From assembly GCA_004298385.1 (NCBI GenBank), contig SCTX01000039.1, forward strand, positions 1 through 50,223: a DNA stretch of 50,223 bases, written 5' to 3'. Made by a program: the position numbers and the translations under genes. This stretch comes from Betaproteobacteria bacterium (GTDB lineage Bacteria; Pseudomonadota; Gammaproteobacteria; Burkholderiales; SG8-39). The notes beneath the pieces were generated by a model, which searched no databases, was not told where the DNA came from, and saw nothing but the letters and a program-made list of their open reading frames with translations. Below are positions 34,195-44,530 of this stretch, one piece after another. Each line of letters starts with the position of its first letter. Positions within the stretch are counted from its first letter, which is position 1.

Positions 34195-35448
34195 TTAGAA
34201 GCGCAGGATTCCGCGCAGCGCTTTCACCCCTTCTTGCACCGCATCGGCGGGCGAGGGGCTCTGCGGCTTATCGGCCTGCGCGGGTGACGCATCGGTTTGC
34301 GGCGAGGGCTGCGCGGCCGCTTCCGACCCGCGCCGAGGCGCGTTGGCGCTCGCTCGCCGCCCGCCGCCTTCGCGCTCGGCGAGCATGGTCATCGCGGTGG
34401 ACTTGAGCCGCAGCTTGACCGCCCACTCCTGTTCCCAGACCTGCTTCGGATCCTTCGGCCGCGGCGGATGCACCAGGTTGAGCTCGCTGCCGTAGGCGAT
34501 AAAATTGAACATCGAAGCGTCGCTCTTGAACACGCCTGCGGGGACGGTACACTCGGTGGTCTGCGGCGGCATCACCACTTTCTCGCGAATCAAGCGCTCG
34601 ACTTCGGCTGGCGGGATGTAGTCCATGAGCACTTGGCCCATCTCCTGCACTTCGCTGGAGGACCAGGTCACCAGATCGTTCTGGTTGTCGCCCTGGCCCA
34701 TTGCTGTGGCGAAGTAGCCCGTCGCCGTGGGTACCGTCTTCCATTTCACGGCAAACGCGCCGCCTGGGGTCTTGCGCACCGGGTCAAAGGCGACAGCATC
34801 CATGAAATCATGCCGCGCGCCGACCGCGAAGCGGATCTCGGGCGAGTAGTTGCCGGCGATGGTGTGATCGCCCTGCAGCGAGCCCGCGGGAGGCACCGCG
34901 CGCGAGTCCTCCTGGTTGGGCCAGGCGCCGTAAGTGCGGTTGCGGCCCGGCGCCGGCCCGCGCGGACGCGAAATTCCGCGGCCGCGGAACGCACGTGCCG
35001 CATCCTGCGGATTGAGGCTGGCGAAGTCCATGATCATCGGCTGGCCGGGGCGCACGGTCTCGCCGCAGCCCCAGTAGATCAGCATCCTGCCTTTCGGGCG
35101 CTCGAACCCGGTCTCGTCGTCGTGCTCGCGCATCGGCGCGCGCTCGACGCGCGGGGTGAGGAGCGGCAGGTTCTGCCCCATTGCAAGCGCTGGCGGAATG
35201 GCGTGCGCCGCGTGGGCTTCGCCACCCGCCTTCAGCGATGAGCCGAGGTCGAGCTTCATCCTCTTGCCCCCTTGCATTCCGGGCGGCATAAGACTGCCCA
35301 TGCCAGGCGGCATTTCCATGCCCATGCCGCCCGCGGTTTCCACACTCATCCAGTACACAGCGACCGGCGGCTTGATCTGCTGCGTCTGCGCGAGCAAGGG
35401 CAGCGGGAGGACCACTGCCAGGGACGCGGCAAGAAGGCGCGATTTCAT
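34195..35448 (-). CDS. periplasmic protein of unknown function, Met/Gly/Pro-rich near the N-terminus
   Basis: A 417-residue protein not recognised as a known enzyme. It has a clear signal peptide (MKSRLLAASLAVVLPLPLLA, cleavage before QTQ). Residues 39-62 form a Met/Gly/Pro-rich stretch (GGMGMEMPPGMGSLMPPGMQ). The middle repeats an idea of structured sheets (GRMLIYWGCGETVRPGQP; AVKWKTVPTATGYFATAMG). The latter resembles fibronectin-like domains in which an extracted value is tested. The C-terminus is a low-complexity Ala/Pro/Ser tail. The methionines could bind a metal, but this is only suggested by composition. It is monocistronic, divergent from the sRNA and universal stress gene. Confidence 0.7.
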   Translation of the reverse strand: MKSRLLAASLAVVLPLPLLAQTQQIKPPVAVYWMSVETAGGMGMEMPPGMGSLMPPGMQGGKRMKLDLGSSLKAGGEAHAAHAIPPALAMGQNLPLLTPRVERAPMREHDDETGFERPKGRMLIYWGCGETVRPGQPMIMDFASLNPQDAARAFRGRGISRPRGPAPGRNRTYGAWPNQEDSRAVPPAGSLQGDHTIAGNYSPEIRFAVGARHDFMDAVAFDPVRKTPGGAFAVKWKTVPTATGYFATAMGQGDNQNDLVTWSSSEVQEMGQVLMDYIPPAEVERLIREKVVMPPQTTECTVPAGVFKSDASMFNFIAYGSELNLVHPPRPKDPKQVWEQEWAVKLRLKSTAMTMLAEREGGGRRASANAPRRGSEAAAQPSPQTDASPAQADKPQSPSPADAVQEGVKALRGILRF

Positions 35449-35578
35449 CGGGGGAACCTCTCTTATTGTGCGATCTTCGCATTATGCACCTTTAGCCGCT
35501 GCCAATGCGTCCGCGCATGGTGTTGAAGGTGAAGCCAGGCTTTCTTGCGGGACGAAATCGGATCAGCGGGGCGTGAAT

Positions 35579-35629
35579 GTCGCCAAGGCGACGAAATCGC
35601 TTAAGCGACGATTTATTTCCGATAAATCG
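35579..35629. repeat. three consecutive palindromes upstream of the sRNA promoter
   Basis: Three inverted repeats follow each other: GTCGCC-AA-GGCGAC (35579-35592), TCGCTTAAGCGA (35597-35608) and CGATTTAT-TTCCG-ATAAATCG (35609-35629). They lie between the minus-strand gene start at 35448 and the FNR-type box at 35639. They could be operators or local cruciform-prone sequence. The function is unknown. Confidence 0.5.
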
Positions 35630-35638
35630 CGACCATCT

Positions 35639-35680
35639 TTGACCTTTATCAAATTGCCGGCCTGGACTAGGCGTTAGATT
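35639..35680 (+). promoter_or_regulatory. CRP/FNR-family class II promoter of the candidate sRNA
   Basis: TTGAC-CTTT-ATCAA (35639-35652) matches the TTGAY-N4-RTCAA consensus of FNR/ANR/FixK regulators. The -10 element TAGATT (35675-35680) lies so that the box is centred 41.5 nt upstream of a start at 35687 (40.5 for a start at G35686). That is the exact class II activator geometry. No -35 hexamer is needed or seen. The same spacing recurs at the universal stress gene. Confidence 0.75.
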
Positions 35681-35685
35681 AACTC

Positions 35686-35773
35686 GCCCTTTTGCTGATT
35701 TCCTCCCATCCTTCTGGGCAGAAGGGCTCTTGCGGACACTCGGTTTCCTATTTTCGAGTGTCCGTTTTTCTTT
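35686..35773 (+). ncRNA. candidate FNR-controlled small RNA with CU-rich loop
   Basis: About 88 nt between the FNR-type promoter and an intrinsic terminator. The predicted 5' stem pairs 35686-35696 (GCCCTTTTGCT) with 35717-35727 (GGGCAGAAGGGC region) in 11 pairs, three of them G-U at most. The 20-nt loop (35697-35716) is nearly all pyrimidine and contains TTTCCTCCCATCC, able to pair with Shine-Dalgarno sequences. A 5-nt linker leads to the terminator hairpin. No open frame with a ribosome site lies inside. Such two-hairpin RNAs with anti-SD loops typically repress mRNAs via Hfq. No database similarity is claimed. Confidence 0.7.
35733..35773 (+). terminator. intrinsic terminator of the candidate sRNA
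   Basis: A perfect 10-bp stem CGGACACTCG (35733-35742) / CGAGTGTCCG (35755-35764) with a 12-nt loop, followed at once by TTTTTCTTT (35765-35773). It is the clearest rho-independent terminator in the window, and no protein-coding gene lies upstream of it on this strand for more than 1.5 kb. Confidence 0.88.
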
Positions 35774-35816
35774 CTGAGACTGGATTCTAGCCGCCCATGG
35801 CGGTCTGGACGGCAGC

Positions 35817-35858
35817 TTGATTTTCATCAACATTCGCGGCTCTACTCCACGCTATGGT
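35817..35858 (+). promoter_or_regulatory. FNR-type class II promoter of the universal stress gene
   Basis: TTGAT-TTTC-ATCAA (35817-35830) is a perfect FNR consensus palindrome. TATGGT (35853-35858) lies at the same distance as the -10 of the sRNA promoter, placing the box at -41.5 for a start near 35865. The leader to the ATG at 36010 is about 145 nt. Universal stress genes under FNR/ANR control are known in Pseudomonas and others. Confidence 0.75.
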
Positions 35859-36009: not shown

Positions 36010-36840
36010 ATGAGCTACAAGACCATCCTGGTTCACATTGATCCCGGCAAACGTTGTTTGGTGCGCGTCGATGTCGCAATCCGCCTGGCGCAGCGGCACG
36101 ATGCCCATCTGGTCGCGCTGCATGCGATCGCGTCGTTTGAACCGCCCGGCTACGTGGTGGCGGAGATGGGACCAGCGCTCATCGAAGCCCAAAGGGAGGC
36201 AGCCGCGAAGGAGCTTGCGCGAAGCAAAAGCGAGTTCAACCAACAGGTGTCGGCTGCGGGCTTCAGCAACGTGGAATGGCGCAGCGCCGTCGATGATCTA
36301 GTCGATGCGATGACCTTGCACGCGCGCTATGCCGATCTGGTTGTGATCGGCCAGACGGACGCTTCGGAAAACTCGCATGTGCCGGCCGACTTCCCCGCGC
36401 GGCTTGTGCTCGCTGCCGGACGGCCGGTGCTGATGCTGCCTACTGTCGGCGGTTTTCCCACGATCGGCAAGCGCATCCTCATCGCCTGGAACCCGAGCCG
36501 CGAGGCCACGCGCGCGGTCACCGACGCAATCCCGCTGTTGCAGCACGCCGACAGTGTGTATGTCATGGCGGTCAACCCGAAGGCCCGCGAACACGGCACC
36601 GTGCCAGGCGCAGATATCGGACTCTATCTCGCGCGCCACGGCGTGCGCGTGGAAGTTAAGACGGATCACGGCGCCGAGATCGACGTGGGCAACGAACTGC
36701 TGTCGCGCGCCGCGGATCTCGACGTCGATCTCATCGTAATGGGCGGGTACGGCCACACGCGGCTGAAGGAGTGGGTGCTGGGCGGGGCCACCCGCACTAT
36801 TCTGAAATCGATGACGGCGCCGGTGCTGATGTCGCACTGA
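36010..36840 (+). CDS. universal stress protein, tandem UspA domains
   Basis: A 276-residue cytoplasmic protein of two UspA folds. The first (1-145) starts YKTILVHIDPGKRC and lacks the terminal glycine motif, while the second ends in MGGYGHTRLKEWVLGGATRTIL, the ATP-binding G-x2-G-x9-G(S/T) pattern. The ATG at 36010 follows an AAAGGAG site; the longer frame from 35959 has none. It is preceded by a perfect FNR box, so it is probably induced at low oxygen. It may help survival during energy limitation. The exact role of tandem Usp proteins is unknown. Confidence 0.9.
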   Translation: MSYKTILVHIDPGKRCLVRVDVAIRLAQRHDAHLVALHAIASFEPPGYVVAEMGPALIEAQREAAAKELARSKSEFNQQVSAAGFSNVEWRSAVDDLVDAMTLHARYADLVVIGQTDASENSHVPADFPARLVLAAGRPVLMLPTVGGFPTIGKRILIAWNPSREATRAVTDAIPLLQHADSVYVMAVNPKAREHGTVPGADIGLYLARHGVRVEVKTDHGAEIDVGNELLSRAADLDVDLIVMGGYGHTRLKEWVLGGATRTILKSMTAPVLMSH

Positions 36841-37073: not shown

Positions 37074-39866
37074 ATGAACACCAGGAAATACGTCTACGCG
37101 TTTGAAGAGGGCGACGGCAAGAACAAGATCCTGCTCGGCGGGAAGGGCGCCGGCCTGTGCGAGATGACGCAGATCGGCCTGAACGTGCCGCCCGGCTTTA
37201 CCGTCACAACGGAGGCGTGCCTCGCCTATCTCGAGACGAACAAACTGCCGGACGGCCTGATGGATGAAATCCAGGCGCACATGGCGGCACTGGAAAAGAA
37301 GACCGGCAAGGGTTTCGGCAGCGCCAAGAACCCGCTGCTGATTTCGGTGCGCTCCGGCTCGGCGATGTCCATGCCGGGGATGATGGATACGATACTCAAC
37401 CTGGGCCTCAACGAAACTTCGCTGCAGGGGCTGATCAAGCAGACCGCGAACCCGCGCTTTGGCTATGATGCGTATCGCCGCTTCATTCAGCTTTTCGGCA
37501 AGATCGCGCTGGGCATCGATGACGAACATTTCGATTCCAGGATGGCCGCGCTCAAGCGCAAGCACGATGCGCGCCTCGACCTGGACCTCTCCGCCGAGCA
37601 CCTCAAGGACCTTGCCGGCGAATACCTGGAGATCGTCAAGCGCCATACCGGCAAGCCGTTTCCGCAGGACCCTTATGAGCAGCTCGAGATCTCGGTGGGC
37701 GCGGTGTTTCGTTCCTGGATGGGCAAGCGCGCGGTGGACTATCGCAGGCAGTTCAAGATCACCAAGGACATGGCCAACGGCACCGCGGTCAGCGTCTGCA
37801 CCATGGTGTTCGGCAACATGGGCAGCGATTCGGGCACCGGAGTCGGCTTCACGCGCAATCCCGGTACCGGCGAGAACGTGATCTACGGAGAATATCTGAC
37901 CAATGCCCAAGGCGAAGACGTGGTGGCGGGCATCCGCACGCCCAAGCCCATCGCCGAGATGGAACAGGAAATGCCGGAGATCTACCGCCAGTTGGTGGAG
38001 CTACACAACCGGCTGGAGTCGCATTACCACGAAGTGCAGGATTTCGAGTTTACCATCGAAAGAGGCACGCTTTACTGCCTGCAGACCCGTAACGGCAAAA
38101 TGAATGCCCGTGGCATGGTGCGCAGTTCGGTCGAGATGTTCCACGAAAGGCTGATTTCCAAGGAGCGCGCACTACTGCGCATCGAGCCGCCGATGCTGGA
38201 GCAATTGCTGGTGCCGCAACTGTCGCCGAATTTCCACGGCAAGTCCCTGGCGCAGGGCCTGCCTGCTTCGCCCGGCGCGGCCTCGGGCAAGATTGTGTTC
38301 GACGCCAACACCGCGGAGGCGCGCGGCAACGCGGGCGAGAAGGTGATCCTGGTGCGCGAGGAAACCAAGCCGGAGGACATCCACGGTTTTTTCCGGGCGC
38401 AGGGCATTCTCACCAGCCGCGGCGGCAAGACCTCCCATGCGGCAGTGGTCGCGCGCGGCATGGGCAAACCCTGCGTATCCGGCTGCGAGCAGATCGTGAT
38501 CGACGACAAGGCGCGCAGCGCCGTCATCGGCGAGACCACCTTGCACGAGGGCGACGTCATCACCATCGACGGCGGCACCGGGCATGTCTACGCCGGCGAA
38601 GTGCCGACCGTGGAAGCCGAGTTTTCGGAGGAAATGGGCACCCTGCTGGCCTGGGCGGACGAGGTGGCGCAACTGAAAGTGATGGCCAACGCCGACACGC
38701 CGGAGGATGCGATCCGCGCGCGGGAATTCGGCGCCGTCGGAATCGGCCTGGTCCGCACCGAGCGCATGTTCAACAGCACCGATCGCCTTCCCATCATGCA
38801 GGAAATGATCCTGGCGGAAACAGTGGAGGAACGCCAGGCGGCGCTGGACCGGCTGCTGCCGATCCAGCGCTCGGATTTCATGGGAATCTTCAAGGCGATG
38901 AAAGGGCTGCCGGTGACCATACGCCTGCTCGATCCGCCGATGCACGAATTCCTTCCGACCGCGGCGCAGCTCGAGCTGGAGATCGCCCACCTGCACCATT
39001 TGCGCGATACCATCAAAGGCCTGGAGGAATTGCCGGACACGCTGAAGCTGCTCAACCCCAGGCTGTACCAGCAATATGCCGACGGTCTGACCAAGCTCGT
39101 GGGCGGTTTGCACGCCTTCAAGGAATCGCATTTGGAAGAAGACGTGATTCTCAAGAAGGAAGGGACCCTGAAAAAAGTGCGCGCGCTGGCCGAGGTCAAC
39201 CCGATGCTGGGTCACCGCGGCGTGCGCCTGGGCATCAGCTATCCGGAAATCTACTCGATGCAAATCCAGGCGATTCTCGAAGCCGCGGCCTTGTGCGCCA
39301 GGGAAGGCATCGAAATCTATCCCGAGATCATGGTGCCGCAGGTCGCCACGGTGGAAGAGCTCATGCGCATCCACAGCAAGGTGCAGCGCATCCACAAGGT
39401 GGTGGAACTGACCCACGGCATCAGCGTGCAATTCAAATTCGGCTCCATGCTGGAAGTGGTGCGCGGCTGCCTGCGCGCGGGCCGCATGGCTCAAGACGCG
39501 GAGTTCTTCTCTTTCGGCACCAACGACCTGACCCAGGCCACATTCTCGTTCAGCCGCGAGGATGCGGAGAACAAGTTCCTGCCGACCTACCTCGAGACCG
39601 GCATCCTGCAGGACAACCCGTTCGAGGTGCTGGACATCAAAGGCGTGGGGCAGTTGATGAAAATGGCGGTCGAGAGCGGCCGCCAGACCCGGCCGGAATT
39701 GAAGGTAGGCATCTGCGGCGAGCACGGCGGCGATCCCGCCTCGATCCACTTTTGCCATCACATCGCGATCAACTACGTGTCTTGCTCCGGGCCGCGCGTG
39801 CCGATCGCGCGCCTCGCGGCGGCGCAGGCCAAGCTGCTGGAGGGGAGTTACAAAGGCATTAACTGA
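37074..39866 (+). CDS. ppdK: pyruvate, phosphate dikinase
   Basis: Interconverts pyruvate, ATP and phosphate with phosphoenolpyruvate, AMP and pyrophosphate. It has 930 residues with the full domain order: N-terminal nucleotide-binding domain (FGNMGSDSGTGVGFTRNP near 246-263), swivelling phosphohistidine domain with H455 in GGKTSHAAVVARGMG, and the C-terminal PEP/pyruvate barrel ending with the KVGICGEHGGDP segment. H455 coincides with the catalytic histidine of the Clostridium symbiosum enzyme. An AGAGG site precedes the ATG. The regulatory protein PDRP is not in the window. In chemolithotrophs and facultative anaerobes PPDK saves ATP or serves gluconeogenesis, which fits the FNR-type sites nearby. 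Confidence 0.95.
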   Translation: MNTRKYVYAFEEGDGKNKILLGGKGAGLCEMTQIGLNVPPGFTVTTEACLAYLETNKLPDGLMDEIQAHMAALEKKTGKGFGSAKNPLLISVRSGSAMSMPGMMDTILNLGLNETSLQGLIKQTANPRFGYDAYRRFIQLFGKIALGIDDEHFDSRMAALKRKHDARLDLDLSAEHLKDLAGEYLEIVKRHTGKPFPQDPYEQLEISVGAVFRSWMGKRAVDYRRQFKITKDMANGTAVSVCTMVFGNMGSDSGTGVGFTRNPGTGENVIYGEYLTNAQGEDVVAGIRTPKPIAEMEQEMPEIYRQLVELHNRLESHYHEVQDFEFTIERGTLYCLQTRNGKMNARGMVRSSVEMFHERLISKERALLRIEPPMLEQLLVPQLSPNFHGKSLAQGLPASPGAASGKIVFDANTAEARGNAGEKVILVREETKPEDIHGFFRAQGILTSRGGKTSHAAVVARGMGKPCVSGCEQIVIDDKARSAVIGETTLHEGDVITIDGGTGHVYAGEVPTVEAEFSEEMGTLLAWADEVAQLKVMANADTPEDAIRAREFGAVGIGLVRTERMFNSTDRLPIMQEMILAETVEERQAALDRLLPIQRSDFMGIFKAMKGLPVTIRLLDPPMHEFLPTAAQLELEIAHLHHLRDTIKGLEELPDTLKLLNPRLYQQYADGLTKLVGGLHAFKESHLEEDVILKKEGTLKKVRALAEVNPMLGHRGVRLGISYPEIYSMQIQAILEAAALCAREGIEIYPEIMVPQVATVEELMRIHSKVQRIHKVVELTHGISVQFKFGSMLEVVRGCLRAGRMAQDAEFFSFGTNDLTQATFSFSREDAENKFLPTYLETGILQDNPFEVLDIKGVGQLMKMAVESGRQTRPELKVGICGEHGGDPASIHFCHHIAINYVSCSGPRVPIARLAAAQAKLLEGSYKGIN

Positions 39867-40643: not shown

Positions 40644-40657
40644 TTGACAAAGATCAA
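40644..40657. promoter_or_regulatory. CRP/FNR-like box
   Basis: TTGAC-AAAG-ATCAA matches the TTGAY-N4-RTCAA consensus. The right half-site is the first ATCAA of a tandem repeat that follows. No good -10 stands at class II distance on the plus strand. On the minus strand TATAAG (40624 to 40619) is 3 nt closer than ideal. The downstream plus-strand gene is a response regulator at 40819. Confidence 0.5.
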
Positions 40658-40730
40658 GAGACACAGAGATCAAGAGACACAGAGATCAAGAAACACAGAG
40701 ATCAAGAAACACAGAGATCAAGAGAGCTTG
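40651..40730 (+). repeat. 16-bp tandem repeat, 4.6 copies
   Basis: The unit AGATCAAGAGACACAG repeats at 40651, 40667, 40683, 40699 and partially at 40715, with GAGACA changed to GAAACA in copies 3 and 4. Each unit carries one ATCAA half-site of the adjacent FNR-like box. A 7-bp palindrome GAGCTTG-G-CAAGCTC (40724-40738) ends the array. It lies in the 230-nt leader region of the response regulator gene. Confidence 0.9.
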
Positions 40731-40818
40731 GCAAGCTCCGGCGTAAATGGTGCAATATGATGGTTTCGCGGAGTTGCCGCAGACGCCGTTCGAGGCGCTT
40801 TCTGGAAAAGGTGGTCAC

Positions 40819-44516: not shown

Positions 44517-44530
44517 TTGACCAAAGTCAA
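44517..44530 (-). promoter_or_regulatory. CRP/FNR-like box upstream of the second universal stress gene
   Basis: The palindrome TTGAC-N4-GTCAA fits the degenerate FNR/ANR/DNR/FixK consensus. On the minus strand TAAGCT lies about one base from the class II position, a 3/6 match to a -10, so the promoter is less convincing than those at 35639 and 35817. The leader to the ATG at 44404 is about 80 nt. Confidence 0.55.

Follow-up and report, generated by a model that had tools for sequence, protein, structure and literature searches.

A conserved candidate small RNA with an FNR-type promoter and an anti-Shine-Dalgarno hairpin loop in a Burkholderiales lineage known from metagenomes

To our knowledge, FNR-activated small RNAs have been described from few groups. 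Escherichia coli FnrS is a short RNA with a class II FNR-type box centred at −41.5 (PMC3032703), and the gonococcal FnrS (FnrS/AniS of Neisseria) is presented as a 5′ stem-loop followed by an unstructured part and a terminator (PMC3032703, PMC4423775); the targets of the neisserial RNA were termed elusive in 2017 (PMC5362039). NmsRA and NmsRB of Neisseria meningitidis possess three stem-loops and two conserved UC-rich anti-Shine-Dalgarno sites, one of which lies in a hairpin loop, and these sequences are reported to down-regulate translation, with no FNR control mentioned in the portion of that account used here (PMC5362039). In Burkholderia cenocepacia, which belongs to the same order as the genome studied here, the double-hairpin RNAs ncS03, ncS05, ncS27, and ncS62 (Betaproteobacteria toxic small RNA, RF02278) are short RNAs built of two hairpins with an unpaired CU-rich stretch complementary to ribosome sites (PMC5688073), and ncS27 has been described for growth arrest and nutrient deprivation (PMC10987360). 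Finally, S17S of Bordetella pertussis, with its betaproteobacterial homologues, carries CU-rich sites expected to mask ribosome binding, a 27-nt region conserved across Betaproteobacteria, and a terminator hairpin; many targets have been proposed for it, and direct repression of one has been reported (PMC11722255). The candidate RNA reported here resembles the betaproteobacterial double-hairpin RNAs and S17S most closely in design and the enteric and gonococcal FnrS RNAs most closely in promoter, and no description of it or of its lineage was found in the open-licence literature.

The candidate lies on contig SCTX01000039.1 of a Betaproteobacteria bacterium (assembly GCA_004298385.1), of which we analyzed positions 1 to 50,223 of the forward strand (50,223 nucleotides, hereafter the window). 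The original prediction, made from the letters of this DNA, had proposed a low-oxygen small RNA (sRNA) of about 88 nt at 35639–35773. As claimed there, this interval holds, on the plus strand, an FNR-type box TTGAC-N4-ATCAA (TTGACCTTTATCAA, 35639–35652, centre 35645.5), a −10 element, a hairpin whose 20-nt loop is CU-rich, and a terminator, and the box, hairpin, and terminator are conserved in 12 copies from 11 genomes; several details were revised. The −10 hexamer had been read as TAGATT at 35675–35680 in exact class II geometry; this geometry holds within one base either way, but A35678 and T35679, invariant in the 12 copies, favour TTAGAT at 35674–35679 as the probable hexamer. From the geometry, transcription is predicted to start at 35686–35687, and position 35687 would lie 41.5 nt from the box centre. 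The 5′ hairpin (35687–35726) has a stem of 10 conserved pairs (35687–35696/35717–35726) in place of the 11 first proposed, since the additional pair G35686–C35727 occurs only in the window's copy. Its loop (35697–35716, GATTTCCTCCCATCCTTCTG) contains the anti-Shine-Dalgarno motif CCTCC and, described earlier as a pyrimidine loop, is pyrimidine-rich (16 of 20 nt) but not all pyrimidine. A linker (35727–35732; mean identity 0.83, 3 of 6 columns invariant) leads into the intrinsic terminator (35733–35773), which consists of a 10-pair stem (35733–35742/35755–35764), a variable loop, and a U-tract at 35765–35773.

A sigma-70 promoter scan listed nothing for the sRNA, as expected of an activator-dependent promoter without a −35 element. 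The sRNA terminator was likewise absent from the list of a simple terminator scan (loop limit 8) though the fold shows it plainly, probably because its loop is longer than that limit. Two mechanically called ORFs overlap the RNA or its promoter, at 35156–35677 (+) and 35492–35833 (−); neither a 7-nt deletion in one homologue nor the conservation pattern resembles what coding would produce. The analysis supports a free-standing, non-coding sRNA candidate of about 86 to 88 nt.

The RNA from 35683 to 35773 was predicted to fold at −37.9 kcal/mol, compared with −19.3 kcal/mol (SD, 2.6) for shuffled sequences (z = −7.1), and none of 200 shuffles was as good. In the window's copy, the loop bases UUUCCUCCC had predicted unpaired probabilities of 0.78 to 1.0, and their pairing with GGGAGGAAAU was predicted at −17.2 kcal/mol. 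An alternative hairpin, CCUUCU/AGAAGG, was rejected as the main form, as it reached −7.0 kcal/mol versus −17.9 kcal/mol for the main hairpin in the window's copy and −4.0 versus −14.1 kcal/mol in the A variant.

The sRNA region was searched for in 40 genomes, comprising the window's own (G000), 13 others of its genus, and 26 from outside the genus. It was matched in the window's genome and in 10 of the 13 congeneric ones, and no match was found in the 26 genomes outside the genus; the three congeneric genomes lacking a match (G004, G005, and G010) are drafts that are 82, 77, and 84% complete, respectively. Among the 11 matches in other genomes, 7 have their start at 35638, immediately ahead of the box, and 6 extend to 35773–35774, where the U-tract ends. 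Alignment of the 12 copies, two of which come from G013, revealed that conservation is confined to the box, the −10 element, the RNA body, and the terminator stem. Mean pairwise identity was 0.98 in the two half-sites of the box, where 9 of 10 columns do not vary, 0.46 in the spacer, and 0.66 in the −10 element; 1.00, 0.99, and 0.96 for the 5′ stem arm, hairpin loop, and 3′ arm, respectively; 0.93 and 0.97 for the terminator arms and 0.58 for the terminator loop; and 0.48 and 0.42 for the upstream and downstream flanks. The distance from the box centre to the first stem base is 41.5 nt in 11 of the 12 copies and 40.5 nt in one. As judged from the aligned sequences, this conservation and spacing are the pattern of a class II activator-dependent promoter followed by a structured RNA, and the conservation indicates that the sRNA gene is real. 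The original prediction had held that absence of the box or stems in close relatives would speak against it; both are conserved, as are two bases of the −10 element, and the covariation that it had proposed to look for turned out to be slight. That the elements are mere chance palindromes in an intergenic region with no gene might be read from the promoter and terminator scans, which list nothing, yet this reading is contradicted by the conservation pattern, the position, and the fold, and we give it almost no credence.

Covariation across the 12 copies did not exceed its shuffle control, with 125 of 500 shuffles reaching the observed score; the RNA varies too little for covariation to be more than slight. 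Among the terminator pairs, one is A-U in 6 copies, G-U in 4, and G-C in 2, and the sole variable pair of the 5′ stem is U-G in 9 copies and U-A in 3. In the hairpin loop, 19 of 20 columns are invariant while the terminator loop drifts; this suggests that the sequence of the hairpin loop is under selection, as would be the case for a loop that has a pairing partner. A role in titrating a protein, as a CsrA/RsmA sponge or a ProQ ligand rather than through base pairing, would agree with the stable double-hairpin shape, which ProQ favours. However, the loop contains no GGA, this triplet being located inside the terminator stem, and the invariant part of the RNA is the loop, complementary to ribosome sites; we consider titration very unlikely.

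The sRNA lies just upstream of usp in 11 of the 12 copies. In the window, this universal stress protein gene (36010–36840, +; Pfam PF00582, 73.9 bits when queried from codon 2) is followed by a pyruvate phosphate dikinase gene (37074–39866, +; Pfam PPDK_N and PEP-utilizers), and the divergent upstream gene (34195–35448, −; 417 aa) has no Pfam match, a short motif of it being found in 8 of the 12 homologous loci. The position beside usp could mean that the hairpin and terminator act in cis, as a leader or attenuator of usp-ppdK, but usp has a box of its own. This second FNR-type box (TTGATTTTCATCAA) is located at 35817–35830 (+), with TATGGT about 22 nt further on (by eye), and each of the 11 syntenic copies has an exact box beyond the terminator, 120 to 131 nt after the start of the sRNA stem. 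Since usp has its own box after the terminator, the sRNA and usp look like two separate promoters under one kind of regulator. Moreover, the second G013 copy (G013 C2), on another contig, lacks a usp motif throughout its 3.1-kb locus and any further box in the 500 nt that follow and still keeps its own box, hairpin, and terminator, which fits a stand-alone trans-acting gene. On this evidence, a leader function appears very improbable. Beside the same G013 copy, a chrB-b RNA (RF03086) was detected at L019:106–164 (+), with 42.6 bits versus a gathering cut-off of 36.5, near a transporter-like ORF (by eye).

Exact TTGAYNNNNRTCAA sites occur four times in the window versus 0.12 expected, a number reached by 0 of 100 shuffles. 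They are found at 35639 (the sRNA), 35817 (before usp), 40644, and 44517. The box at 40644 (TTGACAAAGATCAA) runs into a tandem array (40644–40725; period 16, 4.9 copies of ACAGAGATCAAGAGAC) in which each unit repeats the ATCAA half-site, and box and array lie upstream of a response-regulator ORF at 40747. The box at 44517–44530 (TTGACTTTGGTCAA on the minus strand) is exact and lies upstream of a second usp, which runs from 44404 down to 43961, at 113 nt from its start codon.

Six HTH_Crp_2 proteins above the cut-off were found in the window's genome. An FNR encoded on contig C30 carries the cysteine cluster CSNCSLREMC, another cysteine within DQHSCNAVAL, and the ETVSR motif, residues that we take to be cluster ligands and DNA contacts, and it scored 249 bits against the NCBIfam Fnr model (cut-off, 228). 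By its sequence, this FNR is the likeliest reader of the box. Two further FNR-like proteins of the genome have ETVSR and no N-terminal cysteine cluster; Fnr is their best model, yet their scores of 153 and 162 bits fall below the cut-off. They lend some weight to an arrangement in which the RNA and its mechanism are the same and a cysteine-less FNR/FixK/DNR-like protein recognises the box, with nitric oxide, a sensor kinase, or another cue as the signal; because the same genome encodes a full FNR with CxxCx5C that passes the Fnr cut-off, we see this as a possible but not a probable arrangement. As the two cysteine-less proteins could read the same box, oxygen is only the presumed signal. Of the low-oxygen sRNA first proposed, the free-standing RNA of roughly the stated length and its conserved class II box were upheld, whereas the response to oxygen would depend on whether FNR or a cysteine-less paralogue is at work.

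No Rfam family matched at gathering anywhere in the window, and at E ≤ 10 the interval 35600–35800 gave only four chance-level matches, including RsaE with 13.4 bits (cut-off, 79). We assume that FnrS is among the Rfam families, and none of these matches the sRNA, which provides no sign of relationship to FnrS by descent and accords with the earlier statement that the RNA is no obvious homologue of the named ones. Membership in RF02278 was rejected as well: no match reached gathering (50 bits) in the window, with none at E ≤ 10 for 35600–35800 and none at E ≤ 1 for L015, L016, and L019. The RF02278 model works in the genus, since members over the cut-off were found in 7 of the 14 genus genomes (0 of 14 control genomes), none of them being the window's genome. 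Seven of the eight RF02278 RNAs listed (L048–L052, L054, and L062) share an upstream block (CTTGARCATTGATGG and similar).

The design features of RF02278 are nonetheless present in the window RNA, namely, two hairpins, the second of which is an intrinsic terminator, and a CU-rich stretch predicted to be unpaired and complementary to ribosome sites. It differs from the ncS RNAs in that its anti-Shine-Dalgarno sequence forms one large 5′ hairpin loop, transcription is predicted to begin at the stem, and the promoter is of FNR type. The S17S RNA, which shares the CU-rich sites and terminator hairpin, is set apart in that it is described as processed by RNase E from a 190-nt RNA, is enriched in the Bvg+ mode, and has a 5′ single-stranded site (PMC11722255). 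As for FNR-activated sRNAs, the window RNA is likewise short and shows the features of the class, with the box 41.5 nt from the stem in all copies but one and an FNR with cysteine ligands in the same genome. The 5′ stem-loop plus terminator is shared with the gonococcal RNA, in which the unstructured part follows the stem-loop, whereas here the loop itself is exposed. The anti-Shine-Dalgarno hairpin loop is shared with NmsRA/NmsRB, which differ in having further stem-loops and a second such site.

With R1, a model of the window RNA, 4 of 399 genomes in a sample of the order, searched with stricter filters, were matched (two of the genus itself and two weak, at 29 to 31 bits), and in the family, 14 of 98 genomes were matched (11 of the genus and 3 weak, at 32 to 36 bits). 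Thus, R1 gave no strong match outside the genus among these 399 order and 98 family genomes. The five weak loci outside the genus are hairpins with TCCTCC and a terminator, and none has TTGA-N6-TCAA within 90 nt upstream. Matches in named genomes amounted to 16 stretches, of which 11 are in metagenome-assembled genomes titled Burkholderiales, Betaproteobacteria, or Proteobacteria; the other five (Clostridiaceae, Bacillota, Nitrospira twice, and Anaerocolumna) look like chance. A search for the design itself (box plus YCCTCCY at 40 to 60 nt) matched 58 of the 399 order genomes, from which 66 distinct sites were folded, one of them truncated at a contig end. Four came through a hairpin-plus-terminator filter: the window, the two copies of the window RNA (type 1) in G013, and L184. 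In the family, it matched 29 of 98 genomes (45 rows; 31 distinct sites from 30 of the loci were folded), and 8 of 9 type-1 sites passed, as did L238, which is the same G319 site as L184, and L217, which was discounted as having passed via a long-range fold that looks like chance. The filter misses some sites, and the arrangement looks rare outside the genus. A reversed-pattern control of this search is an unfair null because FNR boxes are real promoter elements. The L184 site (G319:C24:2360–2760, +), in another genus of the family and in one genome only, has an exact FNR-type box, TTGATCTGGGTCAA, after which come a GC-rich hairpin whose loop carries CTCCTCCTCCC and then a terminator.

A second RNA of like design (type 2) was found in the genus search below the RF02278 cut-off, and its stem and loop sequences are unrelated to those of the window RNA. 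It consists of a box NTGAY-N4-RTCAA, a 9-pair stem (CGTTCAAAG/CTTTGAACG), a 19-nt CU-rich loop with CUCCUCC, and a terminator, and its members are L057, L055, L063, L064, L056, L065, L066, L067, L104, and L106. In the eight aligned copies, the box centre is 41.5 nt from the stem in 6 and 42.5 nt in 2, and 7 have another base in place of the box's first T; the covariation score (7 distinct sequences) was reached by 6 of 500 shuffles. A model built from these eight copies, R2, exceeded 70 bits in 11 of the 14 genus genomes; of the three copies not aligned, L104 and L106 carry a box that deviates at one position, and L105 (G005) lacks one. The copy in the window's genome (L057/L139, G000:C12:20529–20606, −) is flanked by a GGDEF-type gene on one side and by response-regulator-like and usp genes on the other (by motif or eye). 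In the loci given, neither R1 against the type-2 RNA nor R2 against the window RNA produced a match at E ≤ 1, so either the stems have diverged beyond recognition or the layout arose twice. R2 matched 66 of the 399 order genomes and 35 of the 98 family genomes; among the 50 R2 loci listed, L104 and L106 alone have a box in the class II position when up to one mismatch is tolerated. Eighteen of the 28 loci from the order contain TCTCCTCC, as RF02278 RNAs do (by eye), and several of the rest appear to be no more than terminators. The original prediction had contained neither this second RNA nor the usp box at 35817, a pattern within the window, nor the likeness to double-hairpin RNAs.

A third RNA type (L126, G000:C139:441–512, +; also L107, L127, L129, and L130) has an anti-Shine-Dalgarno hairpin with stems around GCGTCC..GGACGC. 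No FNR-type box was visible in the G000:C139 copy, and none was found when its relative L107 was scanned. Instead, a conserved stretch of non-FNR type, AGGAAATA-TTCACAG, precedes a CATAAT-like −10 and is perhaps another regulator's site.

As the best explanation of the window RNA, we propose a repressor that is activated by an FNR-family protein, acts in trans, and uses its loop to mask ribosome sites, a reading that we hold with reasonable though far from full confidence. At low oxygen, the iron-sulphur FNR, or an FNR-like paralogue, would bind the box and switch the sRNA on, and the adjacent usp, through its own box, would be switched on together with it. The loop UUUCCUCCC would then pair with Shine-Dalgarno regions, for which the ideal site is GGGAGGAAA, and lower translation by masking them in the manner of the NmsR and S17S anti-Shine-Dalgarno sites. 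The action of the sRNA would be in trans and through short sites, and several messages would probably be affected, not a single one.

The original prediction had looked to targets whose ribosome sites pair with the loop; such sites were found, and none is a convincing shared target. A search of 14 genomes for 13-nt loop complements (at most 1 mismatch) gave 51 sites versus 15 for the reversed control, and 12 of the 51 were the sRNA gene itself. In 6 of the remaining 39, an ORF of at least 50 aa with a possible start codon begins within 13 nt; a single one of these (L261/L284) is found more than once, and it seems to lie within a longer gene. A site with GGATGGGTGGAAA followed by TCAGG in three genomes was dismissed, as it lies antisense inside a phosphatidylserine-synthase-like gene (name by eye). 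The shorter site GGGAGGAAA followed by ATG occurred 35 times versus 9 for the reversed pattern in the 8 of 14 genus genomes searched, once in the window's genome; the recurring ones (30 sites translated) were discarded, since they either lie antisense to ribosomal protein L3, in three genomes, or are near-identical sites with short frames, in G009 and G006. A GGGAGGAAACCGCGGAATG stretch is identical in four contigs of these two genomes (G009:C80 and G006:C254, C355, and C359; L319 and L324) and is perhaps the end of a mobile element. Overall, no conserved sense-strand target emerged from the 14 genomes for long sites or from the 8 genomes for short sites (30 translated). The targets are likely to be several messages with short sites or to differ between species, and this is the weakest step of the account.

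More speculatively, the lineage may run a modular battery in which one anti-Shine-Dalgarno loop logic is placed on several unrelated stems and under different promoters, at least two of them FNR-type, so that falling oxygen would bring a broad, dosage-controlled damping of translation initiation instead of regulating a few targets; the loops of such a battery would mimic the anti-Shine-Dalgarno end of 16S rRNA. We offer this tentatively, as an idea with a modest chance of being right. What is new in the window RNA is that a single anti-Shine-Dalgarno hairpin loop is placed under FNR-type control, an arrangement that recurs in the genus; the parts themselves are known. It provides a conserved candidate in a Burkholderiales lineage known from metagenomes, located beside a usp gene with its own FNR-type box and accompanied by a second RNA of like design. 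If confirmed, it would put the betaproteobacterial anti-Shine-Dalgarno hairpin design under oxygen-type control and would offer a compact setting for testing promoter input and loop output separately.
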